Shown: positions 3,263-38,652 of the stretch, in pieces
Numbering within the stretch: the first letter of the stretch is position 1
Layout of the letters: each line of letters opens with the position of its first letter
DNA from: a virus
IMG/VR virus record: IMGVR_UViG_3300020002_000009
Coordinates: 1-38,652 of that record
Strand: one strand, 5' to 3'
DNA: 38,652 nt
Notes under the pieces: generated by a model
The model's database searches: none
Told to the model about the DNA's origin: nothing
The model's input: only the letters and a program-made list of their open reading frames with translations
Translations under genes and position numbers: made by a program

Positions 3263-3273
3263 ATCTTATAGAT

Positions 3274-3921: not shown

Positions 3922-4685
3922 TGATATACGACATTTTTTTATTTCATAGTGAATTGGACATCTTGGAGATCAGGCTCAATATCCTAGCTGACCAAGTAGA
4001 CAAATTTGTAATTGTGGAGTGCGATGAGGACTTCAAAGGAAAAAAAAAGCCCCTTGTGTTCCTTGAAAATGTTCAGAGGTTCAAAAAGTGGGCGCATAAG
4101 ATCGAGCATTATGTTATCAGAGATGTAATGGGTGATTCAGCTCTAATTGAACAAGCAAAAAAAAGCTCCACGACCGGAGCGGGGGAGTTGCAGTGGATAA
4201 GGGAGTTTTACATGAAAGAGAGCATCAAGAAGTTTTTGACTCATCTTGATGATGACGATATTTGTGTAGTTTCGGATGTAGACGAGATATGGGAAGGAAA
4301 GCCTATATTAAACAAGCGATTTAGATTAAAAGTCTATTGCTATCATCTGAATGTCGGGACTAACGAATACTGGCTGGGCGGTTTTATTACCTCATGGAAG
4401 ATCCTAAAAGAAGGCTCATTGAATGATCTAAAGTCTTCTATAAAAGAACCGATTGAGGGAGGCTGGCATTTCACCTATCAAGGGACGAGAGATCAGATTA
4501 GGAAGAAGTTCGAGAGCGCATTTTCCGGTCAGGCTTACGGAGGCCAGTCTATAGAGCAGCTCATGTCTCATGTAGAGAATCTGCGGGATTATCTGGGAAG
4601 GCCTTTTACTTTTTTTATGGACGAATCAAAGTGGCCGGAATATCTAAAGAATAATCGGGAGAGATATAAGCACTTGCTACTATGA
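3921..4685 (+). CDS. GT17 family N-acetylglucosaminyltransferase-like
   Basis: A 254-aa protein of glycosyltransferase family 17, the family of beta-1,4-mannosyl-glycoprotein GlcNAc-transferase (bisecting GlcNAc, MGAT3). The signatures are YDIFLFHSELDILEIRLN at the N-terminus, VSDVDEIWE (DxD-containing) in the middle and GGWHFTYQG towards the C-terminus, all in family order. Bacterial and viral members occur in surface-glycan islands. It starts in a TAATG overlap with TylF (ATG at 3921 rather than a TTG at 3909) and overlaps the next gene by ATGA. The acceptor here is unknown. Confidence 0.88.
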   Translation: MIYDIFLFHSELDILEIRLNILADQVDKFVIVECDEDFKGKKKPLVFLENVQRFKKWAHKIEHYVIRDVMGDSALIEQAKKSSTTGAGELQWIREFYMKESIKKFLTHLDDDDICVVSDVDEIWEGKPILNKRFRLKVYCYHLNVGTNEYWLGGFITSWKILKEGSLNDLKSSIKEPIEGGWHFTYQGTRDQIRKKFESAFSGQAYGGQSIEQLMSHVENLRDYLGRPFTFFMDESKWPEYLKNNRERYKHLLL

Positions 4686-5227
4686 GCGTAAACTGCTTCA
4701 TCACTACCCATAAGAATCGGACGCCCGAGCGAGACTACTTCTTCGGATTGACTCAATTCGCCTTGTCGATGAGCGGCTACTCTCCGACGATTGTGGAAAA
4801 GCCGATGCTGGAAAGGTACTTTGAATGTGAATATCTGGCCAATGAGTACATTTACATCCTCTGTGATGATGATATAATACCTAGTACGCAAGATACTTTG
4901 AAAAAACTGGTTGAGATAATGAGGAGGCACCCTGAGTATTCCCAGCTTGGCCTCTCATGGAAATCCAACATGAGAGAGGAGGAAAACTCCTCGTGGATCC
5001 GCGAGAAGGGAGAGGAGATATGGGAGATGGACCATGTAGGAGGATGCATGGCCATAAGAAAGGGGACGATAAAGAATTTCGGCCTTAAGGCTGAGTTCAA
5101 ATCCGGATACGGAGACGACAGGGTGATGGGGGAGACTGCAAGGAGGCAGGGCTATAAAGTAGGAATAGTCCCTAATCTATATTTTCATCATTTGGGCGGC
5201 GGATTCTCGACATTTCATGCAGATTAA
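4682..5227 (+). CDS. GT-A type glycosyltransferase
   Basis: A 181-aa GT-A fold protein. YIYILCDDDIIPS (about 57-69) supplies the nucleotide-sugar/metal motif, MDHVGGCMAIRKG is the acceptor-loop region found in GT2-like enzymes, GYGDDRVMGE is the catalytic acidic cluster, and FHHLGG closes the fold. It is shorter than a typical GT2 enzyme because the N-terminal strand region is reduced. It is the last transferase of the island, overlaps GT17 by ATGA and the next gene by 11 bp. The substrate is unknown. Confidence 0.82.
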   Translation: MSVNCFITTHKNRTPERDYFFGLTQFALSMSGYSPTIVEKPMLERYFECEYLANEYIYILCDDDIIPSTQDTLKKLVEIMRRHPEYSQLGLSWKSNMREEENSSWIREKGEEIWEMDHVGGCMAIRKGTIKNFGLKAEFKSGYGDDRVMGETARRQGYKVGIVPNLYFHHLGGGFSTFHAD

Positions 5228-19077: not shown

Positions 19078-19081
19078 GACT

Positions 19082-19348
19082 ATGAAACCAGAAGAAATCA
19101 AAAAAATGATACAAGATACTGTGACTAAAGAAGTGAAAAAAGTCACAGGCTTCAGGCAGTGGCGGAAATTCGATTCGGTTACGGACGTGTTCTCGCCGAT
19201 CACGGGAAACTCCCAGCAGATAGGGTTCTTCGGCAAGCCCAAGATTTCTCAGCCTACTGTCAGTGGTTCTCGGGGAGCGAACGCCGCTTTGGCTTCCCTA
19301 TTAACAGCCCTCTCTAATCTCGGCCTAATCACCGATTCCAGCTCTTAA
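19082..19348 (+). CDS. Small tail-region protein
   Basis: An 88-aa protein with a charged helical N-terminus (MKPEEIKKMIQDTVTKEVKK) and a polar second half ending in a helix (ANAALASLLTALSNLGLITD). The latter resembles the C-terminal helix of small phage structural proteins. I chose the ATG at 19082 over an in-frame TTG at 19067. It is four bases past the previous gene and one base before the next. No family recognised. Confidence 0.65.
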   Translation: MKPEEIKKMIQDTVTKEVKKVTGFRQWRKFDSVTDVFSPITGNSQQIGFFGKPKISQPTVSGSRGANAALASLLTALSNLGLITDSSS

Positions 19349-19349
19349 C

Positions 19350-21122
19350 ATGGGATACGTAAATTCAAAAGGTGTATATATTTCTGACGCTCCAGTAGGG
19401 GCTTCTAGCCAGTTCCAATCTAGTTCGACTGGCTCTGCAGCATCATCGGCAAATAGCAGATCAAACACAACGACACCTGATAACACAACTATTTCAGGGT
19501 CATCTATAACAGGAACGTCTGTTCCCCAAGGACAGACGGCTGTTACTGTACCCTCGACTACCCCGCAGATCGGATCTCCTTCATTGCAGGGTGCGCCTGT
19601 GCAGAATCAGACTCCCGTGGCACCTCCTAAATCTTCCACAGTGACTCCGGGCTCGCCGGAAGCCGCCAAAGTCCAACAGGTGGCAGACATGCAAAAATAC
19701 TTCCCTCAAATCCACTCTAGCTTGACAGCAGGCGGAGCTTCCCCGGACTCGGGCGGCGCAGCCAGAACAGCGATAGATAAGGAGTCTAATTCGATAGCAG
19801 GAAGCCAACCTGTATCCGCTGTGGATACTAGCGGAGTGGCTCCCCAGACTGATCCGTACATCGACCTTTTAATGCAAGAAAGAAAGGACTATGCATCCAC
19901 CCAATCGACTTCCTTAGTTGATGATTACAATACGATTTCAAGCCAGCTCGGACTGCCTGCTATCAATACGGCTTTGATGAATATAAAGAACGTCATGGCA
20001 GGGACTGAGGATGATGTGAGGACGGAGATAACCAAGGCAGGGGGATTCGCTACCGAGTCCCAAGTTCAGGGATTGGTCTACGCGAGGAACAAAGGACTTG
20101 TAAAGCAAGCTCAATTCCTCCAAGACCAAAAGGACTCGGCTCAAGGCCAGCTTGACACCCTTGTAGGGCTTGATGAGAAACAGAAGTCCTTAGCTCAGAC
20201 CCGTTTTGATACGATGCTCAATTTAGATACGAAGATCGCTGATCACGAGCAGTTGGTTCATCAGAACGCCGTAGACCAATATAATAAGACTGTTGATGAG
20301 ATAGGCTATAACGGACTGGCTTTAGGCGCATCTCCTTCGCAAAAAAGGAATATCGAATCTGCTCTCGGTAAGCCGGCAGGATTTTTAGATAATCCGCCGC
20401 TCACCGCCAAGCAGGTGAGCGAACAGTTAGCCCAAAACAGATTCGTAGTCTCCGAAAAGAACGCAGACAGGAGGCTCAGCATCCAGTTGGCTTCGGCCAA
20501 TCGGGCGAGCGACATGGCTGCCGCCAGAGAGATTTCTCTGTATTCAGGCATAGTAAATAAAACGGTTTCTTCCCTGTATCCGTCAGGAAAAAGTCCTATT
20601 CAGACTTATAACAACTCTAAACAATCCATCAATCGCCTGGACGTAGCCTATAAACTGGCGTCGGACCCGAACAATACTAATAAAGCCGCGCCTGACCTTG
20701 ACTTGGTAGACTCTTACATTTCTATCGCTAAAGGCGGTCAACAGCAAATCACTGAAGGACAAGTGGACGTCCTGCTTTCTGGGCTTGGTGTCAAAGCCAA
20801 GTGGGATGTAGCCACCCAGAAGATAACAGGGACAGGGATTTTGGATAACGGAACCCGTAAATCGATCTACGATGCTACTCATGGGATATTCGACGGCCAA
20901 AAGACTCTGGCTGACGAAGGGGTTCAGACTATAAACGGAAGGCTCCAGCAGGAAGGCGTTCCTGATACGATGTGGTTCACTTCCGCTGACCAGGTGGATA
21001 CGACAGCAGGAGTAGATAACACTAATCTTCCGGCAGATACGACAACCGTAATGAAAGATTCGAGTGGCACTTCCCATGTCTATAAATCCGACGGTAATGG
21101 CGGTTGGGTTCTAAACGAATAA
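19350..21122 (+). CDS. Putative internal virion/tail protein
   Basis: A 590-aa protein with a disordered Ser/Thr/Gln/Pro-rich N-terminus (1-165) and a long helical middle (about 165-360, e.g. FDTMLNLDTKIADHEQLVHQ), then a mixed C-terminal domain ending in SSGTSHVYKSDGNGGWVLNE. Large helical proteins at this place in podoviruses are often internal (ejection) proteins. No lysozyme or transglycosylase motif is visible. An ejection role is inferred from size, helix content and gene order. Confidence 0.55.
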   Translation: MGYVNSKGVYISDAPVGASSQFQSSSTGSAASSANSRSNTTTPDNTTISGSSITGTSVPQGQTAVTVPSTTPQIGSPSLQGAPVQNQTPVAPPKSSTVTPGSPEAAKVQQVADMQKYFPQIHSSLTAGGASPDSGGAARTAIDKESNSIAGSQPVSAVDTSGVAPQTDPYIDLLMQERKDYASTQSTSLVDDYNTISSQLGLPAINTALMNIKNVMAGTEDDVRTEITKAGGFATESQVQGLVYARNKGLVKQAQFLQDQKDSAQGQLDTLVGLDEKQKSLAQTRFDTMLNLDTKIADHEQLVHQNAVDQYNKTVDEIGYNGLALGASPSQKRNIESALGKPAGFLDNPPLTAKQVSEQLAQNRFVVSEKNADRRLSIQLASANRASDMAAAREISLYSGIVNKTVSSLYPSGKSPIQTYNNSKQSINRLDVAYKLASDPNNTNKAAPDLDLVDSYISIAKGGQQQITEGQVDVLLSGLGVKAKWDVATQKITGTGILDNGTRKSIYDATHGIFDGQKTLADEGVQTINGRLQQEGVPDTMWFTSADQVDTTAGVDNTNLPADTTTVMKDSSGTSHVYKSDGNGGWVLNE

Positions 21123-29144: not shown

Positions 29145-29741
29145 CTATTGATTGACTATAAAGAAGGCTTTAGCAAAACCTGGATAACACATACTTCTTG
29201 CATTCATTCTATCGTATCTATTTCTGGTATTCATCGGAGTAATAACATCACTCGAACTTCTGCCAGTTCCTATTTGATTAGTCCAAAAATCTTTTTTAGG
29301 TTCATTGAACATTCCCCATAAGGCTGTACGCTTCATAAAATCAGCTCCAAATTCGTGGGGTGAATACTGAAAAGTTGGCCTGCCTAAAAAATATTTTAAC
29401 ATTCCCGTTGCCGGATTTTCTATCACCCAAAACTTCAAGGGACATATCAATTTATTTTGCGGAGTATCATATTGACATTCCCAGATGATCCGTAGACATT
29501 CCTTTACCAATCTCATTCCCTCCCTCAAATCTCTGGGTGTTGCAGCTCTTTGTCTGGCTATCGAGAACATTGTACATGGGGGATTAGCAATAATTCCATA
29601 TACGTTCTTTGGAGGATGATAATTTTCAATTCCAATAGAGCTTCCAATCAATCGAACATCATAACCGGCATCTTTGTAAGGTTTTGTGTCGCTTCCAATA
29701 TCAGCGCAAAGGTGTAAAATGATTTTATCTTTGTTTTCCAT
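29145..29741 (-). CDS. DNA (cytosine-5) methyltransferase-like protein
   Basis: A 198-aa minimal C5-methyltransferase. NPPCTMFS (residues 53-60) has the catalytic Cys56 of the PPC motif, FWVIENPATGML (104-115) is the ENV-like motif, and LHLCADIGSDTKPYKDAGYDV at the N-terminus replaces the usual SAM-binding motif I order. RSMCYPGFAKAF at the C-terminus is like the closing motif. It is about half the length of typical Dcm-type enzymes and has no obvious target-recognition domain, like many short phage methyltransferases. It could protect phage DNA from restriction. It ends the leftward operon. Confidence 0.8.
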   Translation of the reverse strand: MENKDKIILHLCADIGSDTKPYKDAGYDVRLIGSSIGIENYHPPKNVYGIIANPPCTMFSIARQRAATPRDLREGMRLVKECLRIIWECQYDTPQNKLICPLKFWVIENPATGMLKYFLGRPTFQYSPHEFGADFMKRTALWGMFNEPKKDFWTNQIGTGRSSSDVITPMNTRNRYDRMNARSMCYPGFAKAFFIVNQ

Positions 29742-29750
29742 ACGTTTTTG

Positions 29751-29951
29751 TTATCCAATGCTCAACGTTAATCCCTTCGGCCAACATGAGCATCGCCATG
29801 AATATTCACTTTTCTTTTTAGTAATAGGGTCTATGACGTTCTTCAGCTTCTTCATGCAATGGCCGCACCTATTGGCTTTGATTCTACCTATTTCAGTGTC
29901 AGAAAGACAGGTATCGCAGATGCCTTCATTTGTATGGATGCAGTGTTTCAT
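29751..29951 (-). CDS. Small cysteine-rich (zinc-binding) protein
   Basis: A 66-aa protein with HCIHTNEGICDTC (about 3-15) and RCGHCMKK (about 28-35) plus a CSC pair (about 54-56). This gives enough Cys/His for one or two zinc sites. It starts in an ATGA overlap with the upstream gene of the leftward unit. Probably a nucleic-acid- or protein-binding early accessory; no family recognised. Confidence 0.6.
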   Translation of the reverse strand: MKHCIHTNEGICDTCLSDTEIGRIKANRCGHCMKKLKNVIDPITKKKSEYSWRCSCWPKGLTLSIG

Positions 29952-30148
29952 TTCTTTTTATCTGCCCAGATTAAGAACCTAGTAAGTGCGACTGTCGCTA
30001 TGCCTCGTGAGCCATCGTAGCCCTCTCGTGGACAGCCGTCTATACAGTCAGGGTGGCCCGCATCAAGGCATGCTTCCGAGTGCTCGATCTTAGGATAATA
30101 CTCCTCGATATATTCGGGAAGCAGGTCTTTTAGGTGTTCTGTTTTCAT
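29948..30148 (-). CDS. Hypothetical early protein
   Basis: A 66-aa acidic protein, MKTEHLKDLLPEYIEEYYPK followed by a Cys/His/Asp-rich segment (EACLDAGHPDCIDGC, about 25-39) and a C-terminal helix (TVALTRFLIWADKKK). The Cys-His pattern could bind one metal ion. It is translationally linked to the following gene by ATGA. Function unknown. Confidence 0.6.
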   Translation of the reverse strand: MKTEHLKDLLPEYIEEYYPKIEHSEACLDAGHPDCIDGCPREGYDGSRGIATVALTRFLIWADKKK

Positions 30149-30149
30149 T

Positions 30150-30452
30150 TTAGTCTAAGTAAAATTTAATAATTCTATACATCGAAGATTTTCCTATAGA
30201 ATTGTATGAAGCAAAGTCTTCTGCCTCTCTTTTTGTTGTAAACTTTTTATTTAACATTATTTCTCCTGAGAGAATTCCGTATCTCTTAATTTCTTGTTTT
30301 TGTAAAATTGTTTTTATTTTTGTTTTTACAATAACTTTTTGTTTGGGGCATTTATGTCTTCTCTTTTCATACTCTTGTCCAGCATTAAACATCTCTGATA
30401 TTTCTTTTGTCATGTATAATGATTCAATTGTCAATCTATTTTCTTCTGTCAT
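30150..30452 (-). CDS. Hypothetical early protein
   Basis: A 100-aa basic protein beginning MTEENRLTIESLYMTKEISE. The middle is Lys-rich (KCPKQKVIVKTKIKTILQKQ, about 34-53), and the C-terminal part includes KFTTKREAEDFASYNSIGKS, resembling small nucleic-acid-associated or protein-binding domains with a beta-alpha pattern. It starts in an ATGA overlap with the tiny gene upstream. AT-rich. No family recognised. Confidence 0.6.
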   Translation of the reverse strand: MTEENRLTIESLYMTKEISEMFNAGQEYEKRRHKCPKQKVIVKTKIKTILQKQEIKRYGILSGEIMLNKKFTTKREAEDFASYNSIGKSSMYRIIKFYLD

Positions 30453-30592
30453 TTTATTTCTTGCCCAGTTATCAAATAATCTGCATATCTCAAAATATCA
30501 TTCAGGGCTATCTCTTGGTCTCGACCATTGTAATGATACATCTCTAGTATCTTCTCTCCTATTTCTTTGCGTATTTCTTTTTCTGTTTTCAT
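30449..30592 (-). CDS. Tiny early protein, helical
   Basis: A 47-aa, charged helical peptide (MKTEKEIRKEIGEKILEMYH, then RDQEIALNDILRYADYLI). It overlaps both neighbours by ATGA (30449-30452 and 30589-30592), strong evidence that it is a real coupled gene. Function unknown. Confidence 0.62.
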   Translation of the reverse strand: MKTEKEIRKEIGEKILEMYHYNGRDQEIALNDILRYADYLITGQEIK

Positions 30593-30705
30593 ATTAGTAA
30601 TTTAGTTAATTCATCAAATAATTCTAAAGAAAAAAATACAATAATAATAGCAATCGGCCCAGAGAATATAATTAAAGCCTGAATTGGGATATCGAAAATC
30701 GTCAT
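30589..30705 (-). CDS. Tiny single-helix membrane protein
   Basis: A 38-aa peptide with one membrane helix (about 8-28, IQALIIFSGPIAIIIVFF) and an acidic C-terminus. It is coupled to the downstream gene by ATGA and overlaps the upstream one by four bases. One of several one-helix peptides in the leftward unit. Confidence 0.58.
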   Translation of the reverse strand: MTIFDIPIQALIIFSGPIAIIIVFFSLELFDELTKLLI

Positions 30706-30824
30706 AATACTTTAATTATCGCTCTGATAATATCCCTTACTCTCTTTGCCTCTTTTTCTGTCTCATAAGCCCCCAAGAAGGTCTCACGAGCTTCAGTTTT
30801 AGCGTTAGGCGTATCAAACTTCAC
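30702..30824 (-). CDS. Tiny early protein (GTG start)
   Basis: A 40-aa charged helical peptide (KFDTPNAKTEARETFLGAYE, then TEKEAKRVRDIIRAIIKVL). It needs a GTG start at 30824, overlapping the end of the lectin-like gene by 11 bp, and its stop overlaps the next start. Couplings at both ends favour it; the non-ATG start lowers confidence. Confidence 0.45.
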   Translation of the reverse strand: MKFDTPNAKTEARETFLGAYETEKEAKRVRDIIRAIIKVL

Positions 30825-31626
30825 TACTTGGCCTCGGCCCTATGATAAACCAGCAAAAATCTTTAGAGATAGGAGGAGCAAGGGAAACTGCCTCACGGGA
30901 ACGCAAGCTCGAGCGCCGATAGTCGCGATAGCTCCAGTAGACGAAGAACCCGTCGTCGCTCCAGTACGCGTAAGGCACCCTGCCGCCGGAATTGCGGGAA
31001 CCGGAACAGAGAGTCCAATTCTCGATATCCAGATGTTTTCCTGTTTCCTTAAAATATTTCAATTCCATGATGATCCTTTCCCGTATGGTTATCCCTTTTA
31101 TGCCTTCTTTTTCAAGATCGACAGCGGATTTATCCTTTAGATTCTCGTCAGACTCAATGGTCTTCTTGAAATATCTTCTTGTCGCCTCTTTAGGCGGAAG
31201 AAAGTCCTTGTCCATCTCTGTATCATTGTAATAAGTCCAAACTCTGAATAAGGATCTGCATTCATCGAGGAGTTCGGACGTTTTCCTATCAGGCGTATCT
31301 ATGATCTCAAAGTATCCTGATGTATCGGGTCCACAAGCTTCTTCTTTTCGTTCCCAACTAGTCCTGCACTCGCACTGACAATCTCCCCTAGTGCATTGGA
31401 TATGGTCTCCGTCAAAGCAGTCATTGCAGAGGGTATTTGATAATCCTCCGCCTCCTACCTTTTCACCACACTTACCGCATATATCGTAACCGTCCTTACA
31501 ATATCCAACGGGATGATTACAGATGTTATCTTTAACCTCTTCTATAATCTCTTCTCTTTTTAAGTAAGCTATAGTATCGGCCATAGATAAATCCATAAGC
31601 TTTTTTTTGAAGATGTATTTTTTCAT
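30814..31626 (-). CDS. Zinc-finger protein with DGR-target-like variable lectin domain
   Basis: A 270-aa mosaic. An N-terminal helical region precedes a cysteine-rich segment (about 36-90: CNHPVGYC, CGKCGEK, CNDC, CQCEC) that should bind two or more zinc ions. A helical linker (about 100-195) leads to a C-terminal domain (about 196-250) reading KHLDIENWTLCSGSRNSGGR, then VPYAYWSDDGFFVYW and LRSREAVSL. That pattern is like the variable C-type-lectin-fold domains diversified by retroelements in CPR bacteria. The end of the gene is far more GC-rich than its surroundings. It starts in an ATGA overlap. Ligand unknown; binding is the presumed role. Confidence 0.68.
   Translation of the reverse strand: MKKYIFKKKLMDLSMADTIAYLKREEIIEEVKDNICNHPVGYCKDGYDICGKCGEKVGGGGLSNTLCNDCFDGDHIQCTRGDCQCECRTSWERKEEACGPDTSGYFEIIDTPDRKTSELLDECRSLFRVWTYYNDTEMDKDFLPPKEATRRYFKKTIESDENLKDKSAVDLEKEGIKGITIRERIIMELKYFKETGKHLDIENWTLCSGSRNSGGRVPYAYWSDDGFFVYWSYRDYRRSSLRSREAVSLAPPISKDFCWFIIGPRPSSEV
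30883..31016 (-). other. Candidate variable repeat (VR-like) segment
   Basis: Codons 205-248 of the lectin-like gene. At about sixteen positions the codon is NNC or NNT (TAC, AGC, GAC, TTC, GTC, TAT, CGC), as expected if AAC/AAT codons had been randomised at adenines, while fixed residues (Trp, Gly, Arg) keep other codons. GC content is about 60% over 30901-31020 against about 40% just upstream. No matching template repeat or reverse transcriptase is seen in the phage. Confidence 0.5.
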
Positions 31627-31775
31627 TTTAGTAATTCATCAATGGTATCGAGATACCCTAGTAATAAAGTTATAGCCTCGTCTTCTTCACTCCAATCTTT
31701 TGCTTTATAGACCTTTTTAACGGCCTTTTTTAATCCTACGAGCCATTCTCTTGGAACATTTACAGTTTGTTTCAT
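31623..31775 (-). CDS. Tiny early protein
   Basis: A 50-aa peptide, MKQTVNVPREWLVGLKKAVK followed by an acidic helix (EEDEAITLLLGYLDTIDELL). ATGA overlaps join it to the genes on both sides. No family recognised; helical, soluble. Confidence 0.62.
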   Translation of the reverse strand: MKQTVNVPREWLVGLKKAVKKVYKAKDWSEEDEAITLLLGYLDTIDELLK

Positions 31776-32155
31776 ATATTTTTAAGCGCATTATCTAGGT
31801 AAGCGGTGAAGTTAGTAATGGGTTGCTCATCAGTCTTTATTGCTTCCCATTCCTTCTTTATTTCTTCCAGTAGCTGTTTTTGGCAGGCGGCGATGAAGTC
31901 ATGCAAATCCATTTGTATAGATGAGTAGCCTGTTTCAGGATGAGTATTTATCGGACTTCTTCCGAAGATATTGTTAAAATCTTTTCTCTGCTCTTGTATA
32001 AGGTTGATTAGGGGCATATTTTTATGGCATTTACATTCACACTTAAAATCAGGAATTACTCTCTCGGCTTCTTTTAACCCCTTGCCGTATTTTTCAGGTT
32101 CGCAGTGGCCGCAAGCCGTTGTTTCGCCGACATGTAGGTAGTTGATTAGAGTCAT
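31772..32155 (-). CDS. Zinc-binding early protein
   Basis: A 127-aa protein. I use the ATG at 32155, which forms an ATGA overlap with the upstream gene; the longer frame upstream would duplicate coding already used in another frame. The first 45 residues hold TACGHCEP and CECKCHKN (zinc-type Cys/His). The rest is helical (LHDFIAACQKQLLEEIKKEW). The CxCxCH element resembles CQCEC in the lectin-like protein next door, hinting at a shared zinc module. Function unknown. Confidence 0.62.
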   Translation of the reverse strand: MTLINYLHVGETTACGHCEPEKYGKGLKEAERVIPDFKCECKCHKNMPLINLIQEQRKDFNNIFGRSPINTHPETGYSSIQMDLHDFIAACQKQLLEEIKKEWEAIKTDEQPITNFTAYLDNALKNI

Positions 32156-32490
32156 ATCCGTTTTATGAACCACACCCCTATGCCGACAACAAGAGCTATT
32201 AAAGTAACTATGACCGAGAAGGCATTGGCGTACCGGCTGTCGGGAATATTCCATAGGAATAGGACGGCTACGAGGAGTATGTCTAGGAGGAGGAAGATGG
32301 GATAGCGCCAAGCGGAGGGCTTCATTTTCTCCCTCAACTCGCTGTATTTTTCCCTCCAAAAGGCTATCTCTTTATTCAATCTGGCGATCTCCTCTTGGAG
32401 ATGTTCAATACGTGTCGATTCTGTTCGTACGTCAAAGGGAACATGCACTTCTTCATTATGTATGCGTGTAAGATTTATTTTCTTTTTCAT
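32152..32490 (-). CDS. Coiled-coil protein with two membrane helices
   Basis: A 112-aa protein. Residues about 25-56 form a coiled coil (RIEHLQEEIARLNKEIAFWR), followed by two membrane helices (about 60-83, YPIFLLLDILLVAVLFLW, and about 88-108, FSVIVTLIALVVGIGVWF). Charge distribution places the coiled coil in the cytoplasm. Such early membrane proteins often alter host membranes or block superinfection, but no family is recognised. ATGA overlap with the following gene. Confidence 0.68.
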   Translation of the reverse strand: MKKKINLTRIHNEEVHVPFDVRTESTRIEHLQEEIARLNKEIAFWREKYSELREKMKPSAWRYPIFLLLDILLVAVLFLWNIPDSRYANAFSVIVTLIALVVGIGVWFIKRI

Positions 32491-32495
32491 GTTAG

Positions 32496-32627
32496 TTAAT
32501 CTGTGTTATGGTCTCTTTGTAATCTCTCTGATTCTTTTTTATATTCATTCGACCTATGTTCGTCTCCTATTGCGAAATAATAGTTTTCAAGTATTTTTAA
32601 TTCTTCCGCGGTGATTAGTCTAGTCAT
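32496..32627 (-). CDS. Tiny early protein
   Basis: A 43-aa charged peptide (MTRLITAEELKILENYYFAI, then GDEHRSNEYKKESERL), predicted helical. It occupies a gap of the leftward unit at regular spacing, with an AT-rich leader before its ATG. Function unknown. Confidence 0.55.
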   Translation of the reverse strand: MTRLITAEELKILENYYFAIGDEHRSNEYKKESERLQRDHNTD

Positions 32628-32628
32628 G

Positions 32629-32700
32629 TTAGTTTTTAGATATTATGCGTCCCAAGAGGAAGCCGATTATGAATAAGTCTACAAAGAAAATGAATATCAT
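32629..32700 (-). CDS. Tiny single-helix membrane peptide
   Basis: A 23-aa peptide that is nearly all one hydrophobic helix (MIFIFFVDLFIIGFLLGRII). The ATGA overlap with its upstream gene (32697-32700) supports translation, but it is short enough that chance is possible. Confidence 0.42.
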   Translation of the reverse strand: MIFIFFVDLFIIGFLLGRIISKN

Positions 32701-32915
32701 GGCAGTAAGGATTTAAGTAATTTCTTGATAAAGATATTCTTCTCTGTCTTGATTATCTTGATTGGTTGCGTAGAGTGGGGATAGTCCGTAAGTTTCCACT
32801 CTCTCGCTTCCCTTACTCTTTTAGTCCAGTAGTCGAATCTCTTACTGCGCTCTAGACAGCTCTTTATGTATAGAGCGTCGTCTATTTTGAAGGCTTGTTC
32901 AAATTGATTTGTCAT
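32697..32915 (-). CDS. Hypothetical early protein
   Basis: A 72-aa basic helical protein (MTNQFEQAFKIDDALYIKSC, then RVREAREWKLTDYPHSTQP and a Lys-rich end). It overlaps the upstream gene by 17 bp and the tiny membrane peptide by ATGA. No known family. A DNA-contacting role is possible from charge alone. Confidence 0.6.
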   Translation of the reverse strand: MTNQFEQAFKIDDALYIKSCLERSKRFDYWTKRVREAREWKLTDYPHSTQPIKIIKTEKNIFIKKLLKSLLP

Positions 32916-33069
32916 GTTTTTCTTTATATTTCTTTTCTTTATATTTCTTCCAATAAGCCGCCCGGCCCTTGTCTCTTAATTTTCCCTGTTTCTCATAGAA
33001 GCCGCTTTCTTTTAGTTTTTTATGCAGAGCCGGACGTATCTTGTTCAGATGTTGTTTTAAGGATGTCAT
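32899..33069 (-). CDS. Small Lys-rich protein
   Basis: A 56-aa, very basic peptide (RPALHKKLKESGFYEKQGKL, then AAYWKKYKEKKYKEKHDKS). ATGA coupling to the upstream 124-aa gene supports it. The composition is that of a nucleic-acid-binding peptide. No family recognised. Confidence 0.6.
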   Translation of the reverse strand: MTSLKQHLNKIRPALHKKLKESGFYEKQGKLRDKGRAAYWKKYKEKKYKEKHDKSI

Positions 33070-33440
33070 TTATTCAGTCTTTTAATCGCTTGTCTTAGTA
33101 ATCCCGGCATCATCATGAGGATCTCTTGAGTAGCGGCGTCATACACATCGTCAAAGGCTTCGACATAGCCTTCATCGCTGTAGAGCTTGAAAAGATAGGT
33201 GCGGATCTTCTGGCTGTTCTTCCGGGGATCTTTTGCTTTTATAGACTTCCCCAGATGGTTTATTATCTCTATAGTGACCGGTTCGAACTTGAACGAGACG
33301 TTGTTGCCTCCGTCGAAGTTATCATCCTCTTTTTTCTGAGTCACGCTTCCCTGCGCCTTCACTTCGTAGTTGTGGCCGATCTCCAGAGTCTCGGGGATGT
33401 TCGCTTTTCCTTTTAAGTTTATGAAGTAAGTGTCTTGCAT
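33066..33440 (-). CDS. Hypothetical DNA-metabolism module protein
   Basis: A 124-aa protein with a beta-rich first half (YFINLKGKANIPETLEIGHN, YEVKAQGSVTQKKED, VSFKFEPVTIEII) and a helical C-terminus (AATQEILMMMPGLLRQAIKR). The beta part could be an OB-like fold. It is encoded between NinG and small basic proteins, overlaps NinG by 22 bp, and is plausibly part of replication or recombination. No family recognised. Confidence 0.65.
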   Translation of the reverse strand: MQDTYFINLKGKANIPETLEIGHNYEVKAQGSVTQKKEDDNFDGGNNVSFKFEPVTIEIINHLGKSIKAKDPRKNSQKIRTYLFKLYSDEGYVEAFDDVYDAATQEILMMMPGLLRQAIKRLNK

Positions 33441-33787
33441 TTTATTTTGTATTCTTCGATGATTTTCTCATAAGGGAATCCCCAGTAAGGCTTGTCTTTG
33501 TCCTTGTTCAATTCTTCAAAGATCGTCGGGCCAAATTTCTTTATGAGGAACAGCGAATACATCTCTTTATTCCCTTCCAAGAATCTATTGCATTTACGAC
33601 AGGAGGCGTGGACGTTTTTCTCATCGAATCTTTTTTGCAGATATTGTCTTGAGACGAAGTGCGAAGCATCTGCGTCTTTCCAGTGGACCAACCGTCCGCA
33701 ATAGCACTTTATGAGTCCGTTTTGGTCCGCATCCCTCTGTCGGATGAACTCGCTGAATATTTTGTCTGCTTTGGCTTGTAGGGTCAT
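33419..33787 (-). CDS. ninG: NinG/Rap-like recombination nuclease
   Basis: A 122-aa protein matching phage lambda NinG (Rap), a Holliday-junction nuclease acting in phage recombination. ADKIFSEFIRQRDADQNGLI at the N-terminus, the zinc pair KCYCGR (28-30) with ASHFVSRQYLQKRFDEKNVH (41-60), and CRKCNRFLEGN (63-73) are the family's ordered motifs; HNH-like chemistry is expected at the His residues. It is shorter than lambda NinG (204 aa) because its N-terminal part is missing. It lies between an OB-like protein and the ssDNA-binding protein, consistent with a recombination/replication role. Confidence 0.88.
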   Translation of the reverse strand: MTLQAKADKIFSEFIRQRDADQNGLIKCYCGRLVHWKDADASHFVSRQYLQKRFDEKNVHASCRKCNRFLEGNKEMYSLFLIKKFGPTIFEELNKDKDKPYWGFPYEKIIEEYKIKCKTLTS

Positions 33788-33896
33788 TTTTAGGGTGGGG
33801 TGCTATCTACTATCGTCTTTTGATAATTCATGCGTCCTGGCTTATCCTGTAAAGCGGAGAGGGCATCCATAAACAGTCGGTCAATCTCTTTTAGGG

Positions 33897-34430
33897 CTAG
33901 AAAGCCACATCCGCCGGATCAATGCTTGCTGGGTATTCAATCGGATATTCACCGGCAAAGAGCTTTTTTAAGTCGATCTCGGTTTTGGCGTAGAGGTCGG
34001 CAATCTCCGGGGCAACGGGCTTCGGCGGGATCGAGAGCGTGGTGTAGGTCGTCTTGTCGCCGACTTTGGATTTATTCACTTCGATGTCGTAGCCTTTCAA
34101 GTCTCCCCAGTCAGAATTATCTTCAAGGTCTTTCAGGACGCCCATGATCGTCTTTTGGGTTATCTCCCAGATCTGCAATTTTTTCTCGGCGTAGTTCCAG
34201 ATCACCATCGCCCAAAAATAGTTTATGTTCGGCAGGCCGCTTTGATTGAGGTCGACTTGCTCGGGTTTTATCTGGCAGACATTTCCCTCGTGACGAAAAG
34301 GCTTATTATTTTTCCATCCTTCCCATCCGACAACTATGTCGGAAAGTATCCTCACTCGGTTCTTGCCTTCCTCGGCTTTGAAGAATTGGGCGGAATTTCT
34401 CGGGATGACTGCATCTGTTGGTATTGCCAT
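33897..34430 (-). CDS. Single-stranded DNA-binding protein (putative)
   Basis: A 177-aa protein. PRNSAQFFKAEEGKNRVRIL (about 10-29) followed by a beta-rich body (FWAMVIWNYAEKKLQIWEIT, YDIEVNKSKVGDKTTYTTLS) and a C-terminal acidic tail resembles phage ssDNA-binding proteins of the gp32/gp2.5-like OB-fold type. I prefer the ATG at 34430 over 34490, because the latter would overlap a small upstream gene and 34430 has the usual AT-rich leader. It would coat ssDNA at the replication fork with the helicase encoded upstream. The last 10 residues are acidic and aromatic, ending in DPADVAF. Confidence 0.75.
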   Translation of the reverse strand: MAIPTDAVIPRNSAQFFKAEEGKNRVRILSDIVVGWEGWKNNKPFRHEGNVCQIKPEQVDLNQSGLPNINYFWAMVIWNYAEKKLQIWEITQKTIMGVLKDLEDNSDWGDLKGYDIEVNKSKVGDKTTYTTLSIPPKPVAPEIADLYAKTEIDLKKLFAGEYPIEYPASIDPADVAF

Positions 34431-34434
34431 TTTA

Positions 34435-34602
34435 TTATTCGTTAGTTGGTAATTCTCTTTCAACTCCGATGTCCTCGGCAGTCCTGTCATTCGGCTCTCC
34501 GGTAAGAGACTCGGTGTCTTGATGCAAGCTTGTATTGTATTTATTCAGGGGCTTATTGCTTTTTGCTATTGCGTGTCTTTGGATTTGTAAACTGTTGTTC
34601 AT
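34435..34602 (-). CDS. Small early protein
   Basis: A 55-aa polar peptide ending four bases before the ssDNA-binding gene start. It overlaps the 34553-34723 gene by 50 bp in another frame. Composition (LHQDTESLTGEPNDRTAEDI) suggests disorder. A leader peptide or accessory is possible. Low to moderate confidence because of the overlap. Confidence 0.45.
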   Translation of the reverse strand: MNNSLQIQRHAIAKSNKPLNKYNTSLHQDTESLTGEPNDRTAEDIGVERELPTNE

Positions 34603-34723
34603 ATTCTTCTTTTAATGAGTTAATAATGTCATTCATAGTTTCTTCTGCGTATTCTCCATCATCCCAGAAGTAACTTCTTCTGATCTCTAACCCTTGATAT
34701 TCAGCTGTTATTGTTATTTTCAT
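34553..34723 (-). CDS. Small early protein
   Basis: A 56-aa protein, MKITITAEYQGLEIRRSYFW then an acidic helical part (YAEETMNDIINSLKEEYEQQ). The first half is a beta hairpin-like stretch, the second a helix. It is followed two bases upstream by the Cys-rich gene and fits the packed leftward unit. No family recognised. Confidence 0.58.
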   Translation of the reverse strand: MKITITAEYQGLEIRRSYFWDDGEYAEETMNDIINSLKEEYEQQFTNPKTRNSKKQ

Positions 34724-34725
34724 AA

Positions 34726-34863
34726 TTAGTCTGTGTTATCTAGTTCCTGTTCTTCTAATCGCTTCGACCTTTTTTGTCTCACACATAAGCAATCGTCTCC
34801 AAACTCATTTTCTCCGGTTCCCTCGCAGATCTCACAATCGGGGTCAGCTAGTTTATTTTTCAT
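34726..34863 (-). CDS. Tiny zinc-finger (DnaJ-like) peptide
   Basis: A 45-aa peptide with CEICEGTGENEFGDDCLC (about 10-27). The CxxCxGxG element is the zinc-binding repeat of DnaJ-type fingers, with a second CxC half. A basic helix follows. It overlaps the upstream membrane-peptide gene by ATGA. Probably a single-zinc accessory protein of unknown partner. Confidence 0.6.
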   Translation of the reverse strand: MKNKLADPDCEICEGTGENEFGDDCLCVRQKRSKRLEEQELDNTD

Positions 34864-34979
34864 AGGATTTTGTCGATTAACGGATGGCTAAGCACCATGA
34901 CGAACCAGGCGACGGCGACGATCAAAGCTGTACAGACGAGGATACCTAAAAACTCATACGCGATTTCTTTTATTGTCAT
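34860..34979 (-). CDS. Tiny membrane protein
   Basis: A 39-aa peptide with one membrane helix (about 8-30, FLGILVCTALIVAVAWFVMV). The ATGA overlap downstream supports it. It is the first gene after a 240-bp gene-free stretch with predicted RNA structure and a promoter. Confidence 0.58.
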   Translation of the reverse strand: MTIKEIAYEFLGILVCTALIVAVAWFVMVLSHPLIDKIL

Positions 34980-35166
34980 TTGATTTGTCCCATTGCCCCC
35001 ACCGCCAACATTCAGTGTGAAAAAATATAAGCACTAAAAATCTGGTGGAGGTGACGATAGGAATGTTGGCTTAATTTATAAAACCGCCTTTGGGAGACTG
35101 TCGGGATGCAAAGCCGGGGCTGTGCGAGCGATGTCTCTGTTTACGGTTAGAGCTGAAGAGCTCATG
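34980..35166 (-). ncRNA. Candidate structured leader or non-coding RNA
   Basis: This 240-bp gene-free stretch (34980-35219) would be transcribed leftward from the promoter at 35172-35200. Read on the minus strand it can form nested pairs (CCG/CGG, GAGAC/GTCTC, GC/GC, AGCC/GGCT) at about 35087-35146, a short hairpin GAGCT-CTTC-AGCTC near the start, and a 10-bp inverted repeat GCCAACATTC (35061-35070 with 35004-35013). No known RNA family is recognisable. It may be a leader controlling the small genes downstream or an independent RNA. Confidence 0.45.
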
Positions 35167-35171
35167 TAAGA

Positions 35172-35200
35172 AGTCTATCAAAAGGTATTCGGTTCGTCAA
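35172..35200 (-). promoter_or_regulatory. Leftward sigma70-type promoter
   Basis: On the minus strand TTGACG (35200-35195), a 17-bp spacer and TAGACT (35177-35172) form a good -35/-10 pair. It would start transcription near 35165, just after the 69-aa gene, and feed the genes from 34979 leftward. A DnaA box lies just upstream. Confidence 0.6.
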
Positions 35201-35208
35201 GCGTAGGG

Positions 35209-35217
35209 TGTGGATAA
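35209..35217 (-). promoter_or_regulatory. DnaA box (TTATCCACA)
   Basis: A perfect match to the DnaA box TTATCCACA (minus strand), one of three in the genome, located immediately upstream of the leftward promoter at 35172-35200. Confidence 0.55.
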
Positions 35218-35219
35218 CT

Positions 35220-35429
35220 TTATATCTCAAAATCAGACACATCCTTCCTCGATTCCCATTTTTTTGAATCCTCATAGAGTTGCATGGCTCTCGTCTCCAA
35301 TAGTTTGTCATCGTGCTTTTTCGCCATTCTGAGACAGATCACAGCGGCCTCCATGAGGAGCGTAGCTAGTTTCTTATTACTCAGCCCAGGCTGAATCGGC
35401 GAGAGTATCGGTGAATTGTTTGATTTCAT
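35220..35429 (-). CDS. Small helical early protein
   Basis: A 69-aa protein with a Ser/Pro-rich N-terminus and a helical body (NKKLATLLMEAAVICLRMAK, then KLLETRAMQLYEDSKKWESR). The start lies 53 bp inside the helicase gene's 3' end in another frame. It follows the helicase in the same unit, so a replication-accessory role is possible. No family recognised. Confidence 0.6.
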   Translation of the reverse strand: MKSNNSPILSPIQPGLSNKKLATLLMEAAVICLRMAKKHDDKLLETRAMQLYEDSKKWESRKDVSDFEI

Positions 35430-36306
35430 TTTCTTCAGTCTTAGATTTTTCTAAAAATCGACCATTCGTATAGATCATCTTCACATTCCCGGTCTTTCCA
35501 GTTCTCCGGTTGGCTTGGATGGATACGTTCACCTCGTTCGTGATGATGAGCTCGCCTTGGTCTCTTACGGACTTTCGCCAGAGCATTATCACAGTGTCGG
35601 CTTCTTGGGCGGTGAATGACGAGTCCCTTAGATCCTCCAAGTCGGGTTGGACGATCATTTTAGTTTTCTTCAAATGGGAGATTATAAAAATCGTCACATC
35701 CAGTTTCTTGGCGATAGACTTTAGCTCGCGCATCGTCTGGCCGATCTGGAGGTCTTGGCGCTCTGCCATGAAAGGGACTATGAAATGCAGATGGTCTATG
35801 AAGACGATGTTGGAGTTGAATTTCACTTTGGCTTCGATGATCTTATTTTCTACCCAGTTCATGAGGCTCGATGGTATTTTCCTTGGTGTGTAGAAAAGAG
35901 GCGGGACTTCATTGCGGTCTAAAAATTTCTGGATGAGCTCTTCCGCAGGCTCTTCGAACGGCAGCCATAGGGGGTTCTGGTCTTTTAGGCGGATGGTAAG
36001 CTCGATACAAAAGCTAGTCTTGCCTGATTTGGTCGGAGCCGCGATAACGATGAGCTGTTTTTTTGTGAAGCCGCCGAGGATGTCGTCGAATTCTTTTATG
36101 CCGGTCAAGATCTTTTCAATGGGCTTCCGGGTCCTCAGGTCCTCCGCGATCTGATGGGATGAGACTATCTCGTCTTCACCGGAATAAGTGCCGTAAATTA
36201 TCTTCCATCGGCGGAGCTGTTCTTCACGGGCTTCATCATCGGTCATCTTACGGAGTTCCATCTCCATGGTCATCAACCAGTCTGCTGGGGCGAGTGATTC
36301 TTTCAT
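35377..36306 (-). CDS. DnaB-family replicative helicase
   Basis: A 309-aa RecA-fold SF4 helicase. TGIKEFDDILGGF (68-80) and the Walker A APTKSGKTS (90-98) open the core; FEEP (117-120) has the catalytic Glu; NIVFIDHLH (167-174) is Walker B; IISHLKK (208-214) and LRDSSFTAQEADTVIMLWR (226-243) match DnaB motifs H3/H4, and ANRRTGKTGNVKMIY (265-279) the arginine-finger end. It lacks the long DnaB N-terminal domain, having only about 60 residues before the core. It would unwind phage DNA; its start overlaps the initiator gene by ATGA. Confidence 0.9.
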   Translation of the reverse strand: MKESLAPADWLMTMEMELRKMTDDEAREEQLRRWKIIYGTYSGEDEIVSSHQIAEDLRTRKPIEKILTGIKEFDDILGGFTKKQLIVIAAPTKSGKTSFCIELTIRLKDQNPLWLPFEEPAEELIQKFLDRNEVPPLFYTPRKIPSSLMNWVENKIIEAKVKFNSNIVFIDHLHFIVPFMAERQDLQIGQTMRELKSIAKKLDVTIFIISHLKKTKMIVQPDLEDLRDSSFTAQEADTVIMLWRKSVRDQGELIITNEVNVSIQANRRTGKTGNVKMIYTNGRFLEKSKTEENEIKQFTDTLADSAWAE

Positions 36307-37085
36307 CTCTTGTCGAAAGACGAGGCAACGTCCATGAAGTCGAAGCCCCGGTCTTTATAGAAATTATCGGTTTCTAATTCCACCCATCTGTTCTTGATTT
36401 CATTAGGGGTCTTTTTAGCCTCGATCATGATCTGCATTGCTTTGAATTGTTTAGTCGGAAAAGAAAACATCGTTCCCCTTCGGTCTTCAGCCCACTTAAG
36501 CAGGTCTTTTTTACCCGTAACTTTACCTTTAGGCTGAGTTCGAATTGGTTCGTTAGTTTCTGCATCCAAGACAGTCTCATGAGAATCCGAGGACTTGTCT
36601 TCTTGATAAGAACCGAATGTGTTTTTTTTCATTGATTTTGTGAGCGATGCGACAGCATCGCCTATTGTATTAGAGTTAGAGTTAGAGTGCGATATCCTAT
36701 ATATAGGGTATCCATAGCCTATGGCCTTTTCTAAAATATCCAAGGGAATACAGGATATTTCACGATTCATGCCTATTTTTATTTTTGGGTTGTTCGAATG
36801 CTGATATTTGATGAAATTGATGAGTACGACATACCCAGATAGGCTATCCATAGGGTATCTGAGGTAATAGATTTTAGGCTCGATTTGGGGTAATAATTTG
36901 ACCAGCATTTCGACATTAATGCCAGTTTCTAGTGCCATCACTTTGATGGGCAATTCATAAATTCCGCTTATATTAGTGTGCTCATTTGTAAGCAGGTAAA
37001 TAAAGAGGAGTTTTTGGAGCGGAATCAAGTTTGAAATGAATCCGTCGTTCCAAAAGCGAGTGTTGACGATACGCTCTTTTGCCAT
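36303..37085 (-). CDS. Phage replication initiator/replisome organiser-like protein
   Basis: A 260-aa protein. Residues 1-115 look like a winged-helix domain of replisome-organiser type (VNTRFWNDGFISNLIPLQKL, FIYLLTNEHTNISGIYELPI). A low-complexity linker (about 130-205, SHSNSNSNT and a KSSDSHETVLDAET stretch) follows. The C-terminal 55 residues (KQFKAMQIMIEAKKTPNEIK, then NRWVELETDNFYKDRGFDFM) resemble DnaD-like loader domains. Placed upstream of the helicase with an ATGA overlap, it is probably the origin-binding helicase loader, as lambda O/P are. The DNA for its linker carries repeats that may be the origin. Confidence 0.78.
   Translation of the reverse strand: MAKERIVNTRFWNDGFISNLIPLQKLLFIYLLTNEHTNISGIYELPIKVMALETGINVEMLVKLLPQIEPKIYYLRYPMDSLSGYVVLINFIKYQHSNNPKIKIGMNREISCIPLDILEKAIGYGYPIYRISHSNSNSNTIGDAVASLTKSMKKNTFGSYQEDKSSDSHETVLDAETNEPIRTQPKGKVTGKKDLLKWAEDRRGTMFSFPTKQFKAMQIMIEAKKTPNEIKNRWVELETDNFYKDRGFDFMDVASSFDKR
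36670..36852. repeat. Intragenic iteron/palindrome cluster, candidate origin
   Basis: Within the initiator gene: three tandem TTAGAG (36670-36687), a 12-bp palindrome CCTATATATAGG (36696-36707), CCATAGCCTATGG (about 36712-36724), and the 9-mer TATCCATAG at about 36709 and again at about 36844. Tandem repeats and AT-rich palindromes in the linker-coding part of an initiator gene resemble the lambda O arrangement. Confidence 0.5.
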
Positions 37086-37452: not shown

Positions 37453-37644
37453 ATGAGAACTGGAGAGAAAGCCTTTTATCATGAGCCGTTGAGATTCAGG
37501 AAAGCATACCGTCCTCTTTTTAAGAGATATCTGGATTACGTGAAAAAGAGCGACATCTCTGAATCGAGGAAGAACGATGTGATAAAAAACTATGAATACA
37601 GAAAGCAGCTATTCAATATCCAAGACGATGATTCATCCCGATAA
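37453..37644 (+). CDS. Small basic protein
   Basis: A 63-aa protein rich in Arg, Lys and Tyr (YHEPLRFRKAYRPLFKRYLD, then KKSDISESRKNDVIKNYEYR). It has no Cys and is probably helical. The ATG at 37453 has a -10 box at the leaderless distance, so I start there rather than at the longer frame from 37246. It overlaps the GT11 start by 17 bp. Possibly a DNA-binding regulator; no family recognised. Confidence 0.62.
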   Translation: MRTGEKAFYHEPLRFRKAYRPLFKRYLDYVKKSDISESRKNDVIKNYEYRKQLFNIQDDDSSR

Positions 37645-38182
37645 GATATTTGGACGGTTGGGCAATAGGCTCTTTGAGATGGCGGCTTTGTATTCTTTTT
37701 GTCGGGACTTGGGAATAGGCTTCTATTGCCAGGATGAAAAATACTTCAAGAGATACGAAAGGGAGATCCGTGCCATGTTCTCGGAAGGCATCGGTGAGCC
37801 TATAGACGAAGTGGCGATACATGTGAGGCGCGGAGATTATGTTGACAACCCTTTTTATGTAGACTTAACCAAGACTGACTATTACCAAAATGCTACCGGA
37901 CTTTTTCAAGGCGATACTTTTAGGGTTTTTTCAGACGACATTCCGTATTGCAAAGAATATTTTAGGGGAAACAATTTCAAATTCTCGGAAGGGAAGTCGG
38001 AGCTTGAAGACATGAACGACATGGCGAGGTGCAAAGCCCATATAATCGCCAACAGCTCGTTTTCCTACTGGGGGGCTTGGCTATCTCCGCTTTACCCCGA
38101 TAATCGCGTTGTAGGTCCAAAATCGTGGCATCCAGACGGCATCATCCGTACGGTCTTGCCGGAACATTGGGAAAAAATATGA
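37628..38182 (+). CDS. GT11 alpha-1,2-fucosyltransferase
   Basis: A 184-aa family 11 fucosyltransferase. GRLGNRLFEMAALYSF (about 9-24), HVRRGDYVDN (the GDP-fucose-binding HxRRGDY motif, about 65-74), FRVFSDDI (about 98-105) and NSSFSYWGAWLSP (about 141-153) are all present in order. It is about 100 residues shorter than usual because the region between the N-terminal motif and HVRRGDY is reduced. It would make Fuc-alpha-1,2-Gal, the H-type structure on which A/B-type GT6 enzymes act. Its stop overlaps the GT6 start (ATGA). I start at 37628, which gives the family N-terminus. Confidence 0.9.
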   Translation: MIHPDKIFGRLGNRLFEMAALYSFCRDLGIGFYCQDEKYFKRYEREIRAMFSEGIGEPIDEVAIHVRRGDYVDNPFYVDLTKTDYYQNATGLFQGDTFRVFSDDIPYCKEYFRGNNFKFSEGKSELEDMNDMARCKAHIIANSSFSYWGAWLSPLYPDNRVVGPKSWHPDGIIRTVLPEHWEKI

Positions 38183-38652
38183 TGAAAGCAATACCACAAA
38201 AAAAAATAGCTCTCATATTCATCTGTGTTAATTTTCCCTATTGGCCTTATATTGGTCCGATGATCGAATCGTGTAAGAAAAACTTTTTGACCAATCATAA
38301 AGTGGATTATTTCTTGTGGAGCGACATAGGTGACACTTTTCCCGAAGTGACTTACGGAGCGACGGTATTTCCGACTGAAGGAGTTAACTGGCCTCTTCCG
38401 ACTTTAATGCGCTATCATTTGTTCTTGCAACAGGAAGAAAAGTTGAAAGAGTATGACTATATTTTTTATGCTGATGCGGATATGTTGGTAGTGGATAAAA
38501 TCGGGGATGAGATTCTGGGTGACGGACTGACCGCGGCACAGCATCCGATGTATGCCTTCCGGAAGGGGCTTTACTTCCCTGTCGAGCCTAACCCAGATTC
38601 GACTGCTTTCATCCCTGTACCTAAATATTACTTTGCCGGCGGCTTCCAGGGT
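38179..38652 (+). CDS. GT6 (ABO-type) glycosyltransferase, N-terminal part
   Basis: First 158 codons of the GT6 gene that continues at base 1 of the window. KKIALIFICVNFPYWPYIGP opens the GT-A fold, MRYHLFL (about 77-83) is the family helix, and YIFYADADMLV (about 94-104) supplies the DxD metal/nucleotide motif (D99, D101). Many bacterial GT6 proteins instead carry NxN; here the vertebrate-like DxD is kept, so metal dependence is expected. It has no membrane anchor, unlike Golgi enzymes. It overlaps the fucosyltransferase stop, which suggests a coupled H-then-A/B-type pathway. Confidence 0.9.
   Translation, partial: MMKAIPQKKIALIFICVNFPYWPYIGPMIESCKKNFLTNHKVDYFLWSDIGDTFPEVTYGATVFPTEGVNWPLPTLMRYHLFLQQEEKLKEYDYIFYADADMLVVDKIGDEILGDGLTAAQHPMYAFRKGLYFPVEPNPDSTAFIPVPKYYFAGGFQG
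38526..38651. repeat. Terminal overlap, right copy
   Basis: Identical to bases 1-126. It lies inside the GT6 gene, so the contig break is not at a natural gene boundary. Base 38652 (T) differs from base 127 (C), a synonymous difference. Confidence 0.93.

Follow-up and report, generated by a model that had tools for sequence, protein, structure and literature searches.

The window analysed here is the whole 38,652-nucleotide stretch of IMG/VR record IMGVR_UViG_3300020002_000009. Comparison of its two ends revealed a terminal repeat, with bases 1-126 identical to 38526-38651; the sole difference lies at the last base (T/C, synonymous in a Gly codon). From this 126-base identity we conclude that the sequence is circular, with a unit length of 38,525 b. 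IMG/VR classes it as linear, probably on account of the single last-base mismatch in the end overlap. Across the circular junction runs a gene of glycosyltransferase family GT6, whose 5' part occupies 38179-38652 on the plus strand (ATG at 38179, or an in-frame ATG at 38182) and whose 3' part occupies 1-442 on the same strand. The preliminary description had proposed that this gene, with its YADAD and WNDESHWNRY motifs, is completed at bases 1-442; indeed, joining the record ends yields one intact 262-aa frame with its stop codon at 440-442. Because the 126-base overlap restores a single frame, the GT6 gene is not a contig-end artefact.

The GT6 gene belongs to a cassette of about nine genes on one strand, extending from 37628 across the junction to 5227 in the order GT11, GT6, GT2, GT2, F7, DUF3431, TylF methyltransferase, GT17 and GT21-like, with start and stop codons overlapping at most joints. 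Together these genes encode homologues of at least six glycosyltransferases and one methyltransferase. The first is a short GT11 homologue (37628-38182; 184 aa, or 196 aa from an alternative start at 37592), whose HVRRGDY and NSSFSYWGAWL motifs lie, as first described, in an ORF ending at 38182; the start at 37628 fits the protein starts in sister phages. Its TGA stop codon (38180-38182) forms an ATGA overlap with the GT6 ATG, and another ATGA joins GT6 to the first GT2 glycosyltransferase (439-1122; PF00535, 125 bits). A second GT2 gene (1104-1769; PF00535, 54.7 bits) is followed by F7, a divergent, full-length second GT11 homologue (1872-2651), and by a DUF3431 protein, family F8, which is a probable glycosyltransferase by context (2648-3262; PF11913, 30.9 bits). 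A TylF-type methyltransferase, probably acting in sugar O-methylation (3250-3921; PF05711, 195.9 bits), and a GT17 glycosyltransferase (3921-4685; PF04724, 70.2 bits) come next, and the cassette ends with a GT21/GT2-like glycosyltransferase (4682-5227; PF13506, 25.4 bits, cut-off 21.7).

None of the cassette proteins has a strongly hydrophobic segment (maximum KD19 1.25), and Pfam recognised no flippase, polymerase, lipid-carrier transferase or O-acetylase in the window cassette. Nor did hydrophobicity or Pfam reveal in it the membrane flippase and membrane glucosyltransferase that are features of gtr-type serotype conversion. The window also contains no SDR sugar-nucleotide genes, including those of GDP-fucose synthesis (PF16363-type), implying that sugar donors must come from the host.

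Directly 3' of the cassette, on the same strand, lie the packaging, head, tail and lysis genes (5946-27298; terminase at 5946, portal at 7542, major head protein at 12596, M23 peptidase at 26408). The replication genes are upstream of the cassette, on the opposite strand (29145-37085). Neither an integrase nor a repressor was recognised in the scanned ORFs, which leaves lysogenic conversion without support. The head protein remotely resembles those of Bacillus and Streptomyces phages, and the terminase those of Flavobacterium phages; the portal had no match in the phage collection, no near DNA match to the record was found, and genome scans for GT6 gave two distant bacterial loci and no more. 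These results, taken singly or together, do not support a host.

The GT6 protein and its predicted donor

Profile searches confirmed the family assignments made for the GT6 and GT11 genes, both far above the cut-off. GT6 scored 92.7 bits (PF03414; 2.4e-26, cut-off 25) and GT11 66.8 bits (PF01531; 2.4e-18, cut-off 23.9), the latter match covering profile positions 151-266. By phmmer, the closest solved relatives of the GT6 protein are BoGT6a of Bacteroides ovatus (1e-29) and the human ABO transferases (about 8e-22). The structural model was made from the homologue in sister contig L009, which is 59% identical over 254 columns (pLDDT 88.6). Its best match was BoGT6a (PDB 4ayj; E 1.1e-22, TM 0.76/0.87), with the human ABO enzymes next; the model of this homologue has the GT-A fold of the GT6 type, which the window protein is predicted to share.

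Aligned with the human enzyme, the window GT6 has DAD at 211-213 and keeps the equivalents of His233, Trp300, Asp302 and Glu303, with the catalytic-site His233, Trp300 and Glu303 matched by its HPM and WNDES motifs. At the position of human Asp326, which like Thr245 is an acceptor-contact residue, it has Pro, as does BoGT6a, an enzyme that is nonetheless active on 2'-fucosyllactose. Conserved Lys residues are found in the tail, where the sequence alignment to BoGT6a ends before Lys231, a diphosphate contact. Position 235 is Met, and position 245, Thr in the human enzyme, is Pro throughout the clade. Because these last two residues differ from those of characterised enzymes, donor or acceptor preference could differ from that of ABO.

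A Gly at the position matching human 268 had been taken as a hint of GalNAc transfer. The Gly is present, and the hint is strengthened by the complete donor-site tripeptide at 266-268, Ala-Gly-Gly, which is found in 19/19 members of the clade and in BoGT6a and which supports a GalNAc donor better than Gly268 alone. With a human A transferase carrying Ala-Gly-Gly, A antigen reached 95-141% of control and B antigen was absent (PMC6351642), and BoGT6a is an A-type GalNAc transferase that acts on 2'-fucosyllactose (PMC3961637). Taken together, these data make GalNAc a fair prediction for the donor.

The preliminary description had also singled out the GT6 protein for keeping DxD. The motif is there, but it is no rarity among phages, as all 38 of the 38 phage GT6 rows compared have DxD; the two bacterial loci read NGT and NAN. 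NxN is found in nearly all bacterial GT6 enzymes, and Mg/Mn dependence has been described for a bacterial enzyme with DxD (PMC3961637). From the retained DxD we infer that the phage GT6 is probably metal-dependent. It shares with BoGT6a and human ABO the predicted fold and the catalytic Glu, Trp and His, but differs from BoGT6a, an NxN and metal-independent enzyme, in its DxD and in Met235 and Pro245. Phage GT6 proteins, with DxD rather than the NxN of most bacteria, would provide a probably metal-dependent microbial set for comparison with the ABO enzymes.

In a GT6 tree, the window protein grouped with its 18 sisters (100/100). The deeper order was weak and the human row formed a long branch, and for these reasons we claim neither a vertebrate nor a bacterial origin. 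In most sister GT6 proteins (L003-L058) the N terminus is extended and tens of residues are inserted ahead of WPxPT, two features absent from the window and L009 proteins.

Related cassettes in other phages

Scans of viral contigs identified 18 sister contigs, in all of which the core of GT6, both GT2 genes and the short GT11 is present (18/18). Most also carry F7 (15/18), DUF3431 (15/18) and GT17 (12/18). In four contigs (G001, G005, G009 and G037) the cassette is followed, in the same direction, by portal and head genes with 58-76% identity to those of the window. Contigs selected by terminase were 5-19 kb long and uninformative for cassette presence or absence. The slot between DUF3431 and GT17 holds TylF in the window and an unrelated FkbM methyltransferase in L008 (9318-9968), which suggests an exchangeable capping methylation.

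SDR sugar-nucleotide genes and a DegT-type aminotransferase are present in 18/18 sisters, the SDR genes being those absent from the window. NCBIfam indicated dTDP-glucose 4,6-dehydratase-like enzymes among the sister SDRs; in L012, a GDP-mannose 4,6-dehydratase fell just under the cut-off (405.1 vs 415 bits), and no GDP-fucose synthase exceeded it among the sister SDRs scanned. The combination of SDR and DegT genes implies that the sisters probably make an amino-dideoxy sugar. The window, judged by its gene content, is probably a reduced version of the cassette that relies on host donors.

A closely similar block is found in LR756502, a 642-kb uncultured phage, with GT2, GT6, DegT, GT2, DUF5672, DUF3431, F7 and GT17 in a row, indicating that the cassette is common to very different phages. 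Two more F7 homologues lie at the same locus (L139; LR756502.1 438000-468000), as does a GT11 of full length.

We also asked how often GT11 and GT6 occur together. Although a GT6 relative was found in only 71/50,697 phage records overall, GT11 was above cut-off in 17/19 GT6-selected phage contigs, and a GT6 lay within the fetched flank of 26/80 GT11-selected loci; many of the paired contigs are related, so that these pairing counts are not independent. Another 12 phage contigs, some nearly identical to one another, have a GT11 that overlaps GT6 directly by 16-25 b. The proposed coupling of the two genes is therefore borne out. Within the clade itself, the direct GT11-GT6 order is confined to the window and L013, with at least one gene intervening elsewhere.

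Nevertheless, the pairing is not special to the present phage. GT11 and GT6 are already known from one annotated cluster in each of the ocean cyanophages P-SSM2 (of Prochlorococcus; PSSM2_265 and PSSM2_268) and ACG-2014f (of Synechococcus), co-directional with other glycosyltransferases and with DxD in the GT6, as here; the GT6 of two cyanophages was mentioned in the 2014 BoGT6a paper (PMC3961637). These cyanophages differ in being large and T4-like; their GT11 is full-length (264 aa) and separated from GT6 by two genes, the cluster includes sugar-nucleotide genes, and the GT6 is only 29-36% identical to that of the window. What is new is that a second clade of phages has a conserved cassette of larger size, with a short GT11 and an unrecognised second GT11 homologue. 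Also new are the signature of DxD and Ala-Gly-Gly, shared without exception, and the finding that the window, and it alone, has no sugar-nucleotide genes. A partial literature search found no paper describing this clade. The conservation of the larger cassette across a second uncultivated phage group suggests that these phages assemble an elaborate coat of sugars for themselves.

Acceptor, product and the short GT11

With moderate confidence, we favour the view that the phage-encoded cassette builds an oligosaccharide stepwise in the host cytoplasm, most likely on a virion protein. The enzymes would act in the cytoplasm during late infection, using host sugar nucleotides. GT6 would most likely add alpha-1,3-GalNAc and GT11 fucose or another GDP-6-deoxyhexose, so that part of the glycan may resemble a Fuc/GalNAc-branched galactose. 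The completed glycan would shield virions or mediate adsorption. A virion protein as acceptor is suggested by the apparently soluble enzymes, by the late-gene position of the cassette and by the lack of recognised lipid-linked or flippase machinery and of a thymidylate synthase-type gene. Several structural proteins have Ser/Thr-rich stretches, which are too unspecific to name an acceptor. The H/A-type product, the fucose donor and the acceptor are all predictions, and the SDR and DegT genes of the sisters speak for amino-dideoxy sugars in preference to a simple H/A structure.

There are precedents for such a role. The capsid of chlorovirus PBCV-1 is glycosylated by virus-encoded glycosyltransferases. 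So are mycobacteriophage virions, in the account of Freeman et al. 2023 given in PMC12619734. We use both as a working analogy only, expecting differences in the glycans as well as in the enzyme sets. If the cassette does decorate virions, it would constitute a self-contained viral glycosylation system common to 40-kb phages and a 640-kb phage, and a handful of soluble enzymes would allow a direct test of what phage GT6 and GT11 genes are for.

The main rival is that the cassette remodels LPS, capsule or some other glycan on the host surface and so blocks superinfection by other phages or changes receptor display, a role already proposed for cyanophage LPS genes. Cyanophage GT11/GT6 pairs lie in clusters that their authors termed LPS or cell-wall modification genes, and host-surface remodelling is favoured by those authors for similar clusters (PMC9602691). 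Bacterial GT6 and GT11 enzymes also work in O-antigen synthesis: in E. coli O86, WbwK (GT11) is followed by WbnI (GT6), which acts on Fuc-alpha-2-Gal (PMC4202792). This is the same family pair, but in a membrane-based pathway whose machinery is absent from the window cassette, where not even a membrane anchor was recognised; the cassette moreover adjoins late structural genes. A host-surface acceptor could use the membrane machinery of the host, which counts against the virion reading. On balance, we consider remodelling of the host surface possible but somewhat unlikely.

Two further explanations concern the enzymes rather than the acceptor and are consequently not exclusive of either scenario above. 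The first is the ABO-like pathway of the preliminary description, in which GT11 makes Fuc-alpha-1,2-Gal and GT6 adds GalNAc to give a blood-group-A trisaccharide cap. Much of its foundation stands: both families, their repeated coupling and the GalNAc hint, with a GT6 that has the A-type tripeptide and whose closest match, BoGT6a, uses 2'-fucosyllactose. In addition, a GDP-mannose 4,6-dehydratase-like gene lies close downstream of GT11 in two sisters, and another is included in the GT11/GT6 cluster of ACG-2014f. However, the pair is only part of a cassette of about nine genes, which makes a simple H-then-A cap just one interpretation among others. Against it also count the missing GDP-fucose pathway in the window (host supply is possible), the lack of a GDP-fucose synthase among the sister SDRs, the truncated GT11, the Pro in place of Thr245 and, in LR756502, a best GT11 match about 20 kb from GT6. 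A true two-step pathway is therefore unlikely in our judgement.

Also unsupported as worded is the assignment of GT11 as an alpha-1,2-fucosyltransferase making H. Besides the absence of any GDP-fucose gene from the window, the protein lacks much of the N-terminal half of a full-length, two-domain GT-B enzyme. Other phage GT11 proteins mostly have 263-272 aa, compared with 184 in the window, and alignment shows that about 65-80 residues between the N-terminal GxLGN and HxRRGD are absent from the window protein and its 18 sisters. Both family motifs, HxRRGD and NSSFSxWxAxL, are present. An AlphaFold2 model gave a confident, compact single domain (pLDDT 92.9, pTM 0.87), whose fold matches were weak (best E 2.5e-3) and included POFUT2, POFUT1, NodZ and WaaC, all GT-B; a search against PDB sequences gave no match. 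On these grounds we class the protein as a short GT11 homologue and not as a canonical alpha-1,2-fucosyltransferase. The short form is common to 19/19 members, ruling out a truncation artefact. Its likely transfer of fucose or another GDP-6-deoxyhexose is open to the objection that so short a protein may have no activity or a different one.

The second GT11 homologue, F7, bears on this question. No Pfam model recognises it, but profile comparison aligned it with GT11 (hhalign, 99.2%, E 2.5e-19), and tblastn matched it to a cyanophage protein annotated as alpha-1,2-fucosyltransferase (4e-34) and to the P-SSM2 GT11 (7e-6). Its first motif is FRGGE in place of HxRRGD, and it co-occurs with the short GT11 in 16/19 members. 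In split GT-B enzymes such as Alg13/Alg14, the donor-binding half-enzyme has about 180-200 aa, similar in size to the short GT11, for which F7 is only a candidate partner. A bolder and rather improbable view is that this whole clade of small phages (about 38-44 kb) devotes roughly one-sixth to one-quarter of the genome to a mobile cassette making a long, cytoplasm-built virion glycan with a blood-group-A-like branch. The half-size GT11 would then work as a GT-B enzyme that is either single-domain or split, and F7 might lend it an acceptor-binding domain. Whatever its activity, the short GT11 is a natural test of the minimum size of a GT-B fucosyltransferase.

Alternatively, the short GT11 could be a decayed, non-catalytic remnant, with only the other enzymes mattering. 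Its missing N-terminal-half residues, weak fold matches and lack of a PDB sequence match all fit this explanation. A decaying gene, however, would not remain open and uniform across 19 genomes; the short GT11 is open in all of them, with proteins 42-53% identical to that of the window and motif residues kept in most, and the model is a confident single domain. We regard decay as doubtful.

Least probable is that the enzymes glycosylate modified phage DNA bases against restriction, since the GT6, GT11 and GT17 families act on saccharide acceptors and DNA hypermodification drew no support from searches for a thymidylate-synthase-type hydroxymethylase (none in the window or 18 sisters, with working positive controls) or for TET/JBP (no match, in a search without a positive control). 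In its favour are a DNA methyltransferase-like gene at 29145-29741 and the phage glycosyltransferases that decorate modified DNA bases, discussed in PMC12619734.

Finally, the sister cassettes contain several genes of other kinds. HNH/NUMOD3 and endonuclease VII-type genes lie between cassette genes in L011 (4465-4971, 9119-9595 and 12213-12665) and L014 (5573-6016), and are perhaps linked to cassette mobility. Directly 3' of the cassette in L012 is a Cpn60/GroEL-type chaperonin gene (19078-20649; Pfam, 168 bits). In several sisters the cassette also encloses a nucleotidyltransferase similar to RfaE domain II or to glycerol-3-phosphate cytidylyltransferase, which in L014 (7654-8690) adjoins a HAD hydrolase and which hints at a further activated sugar or polyol.
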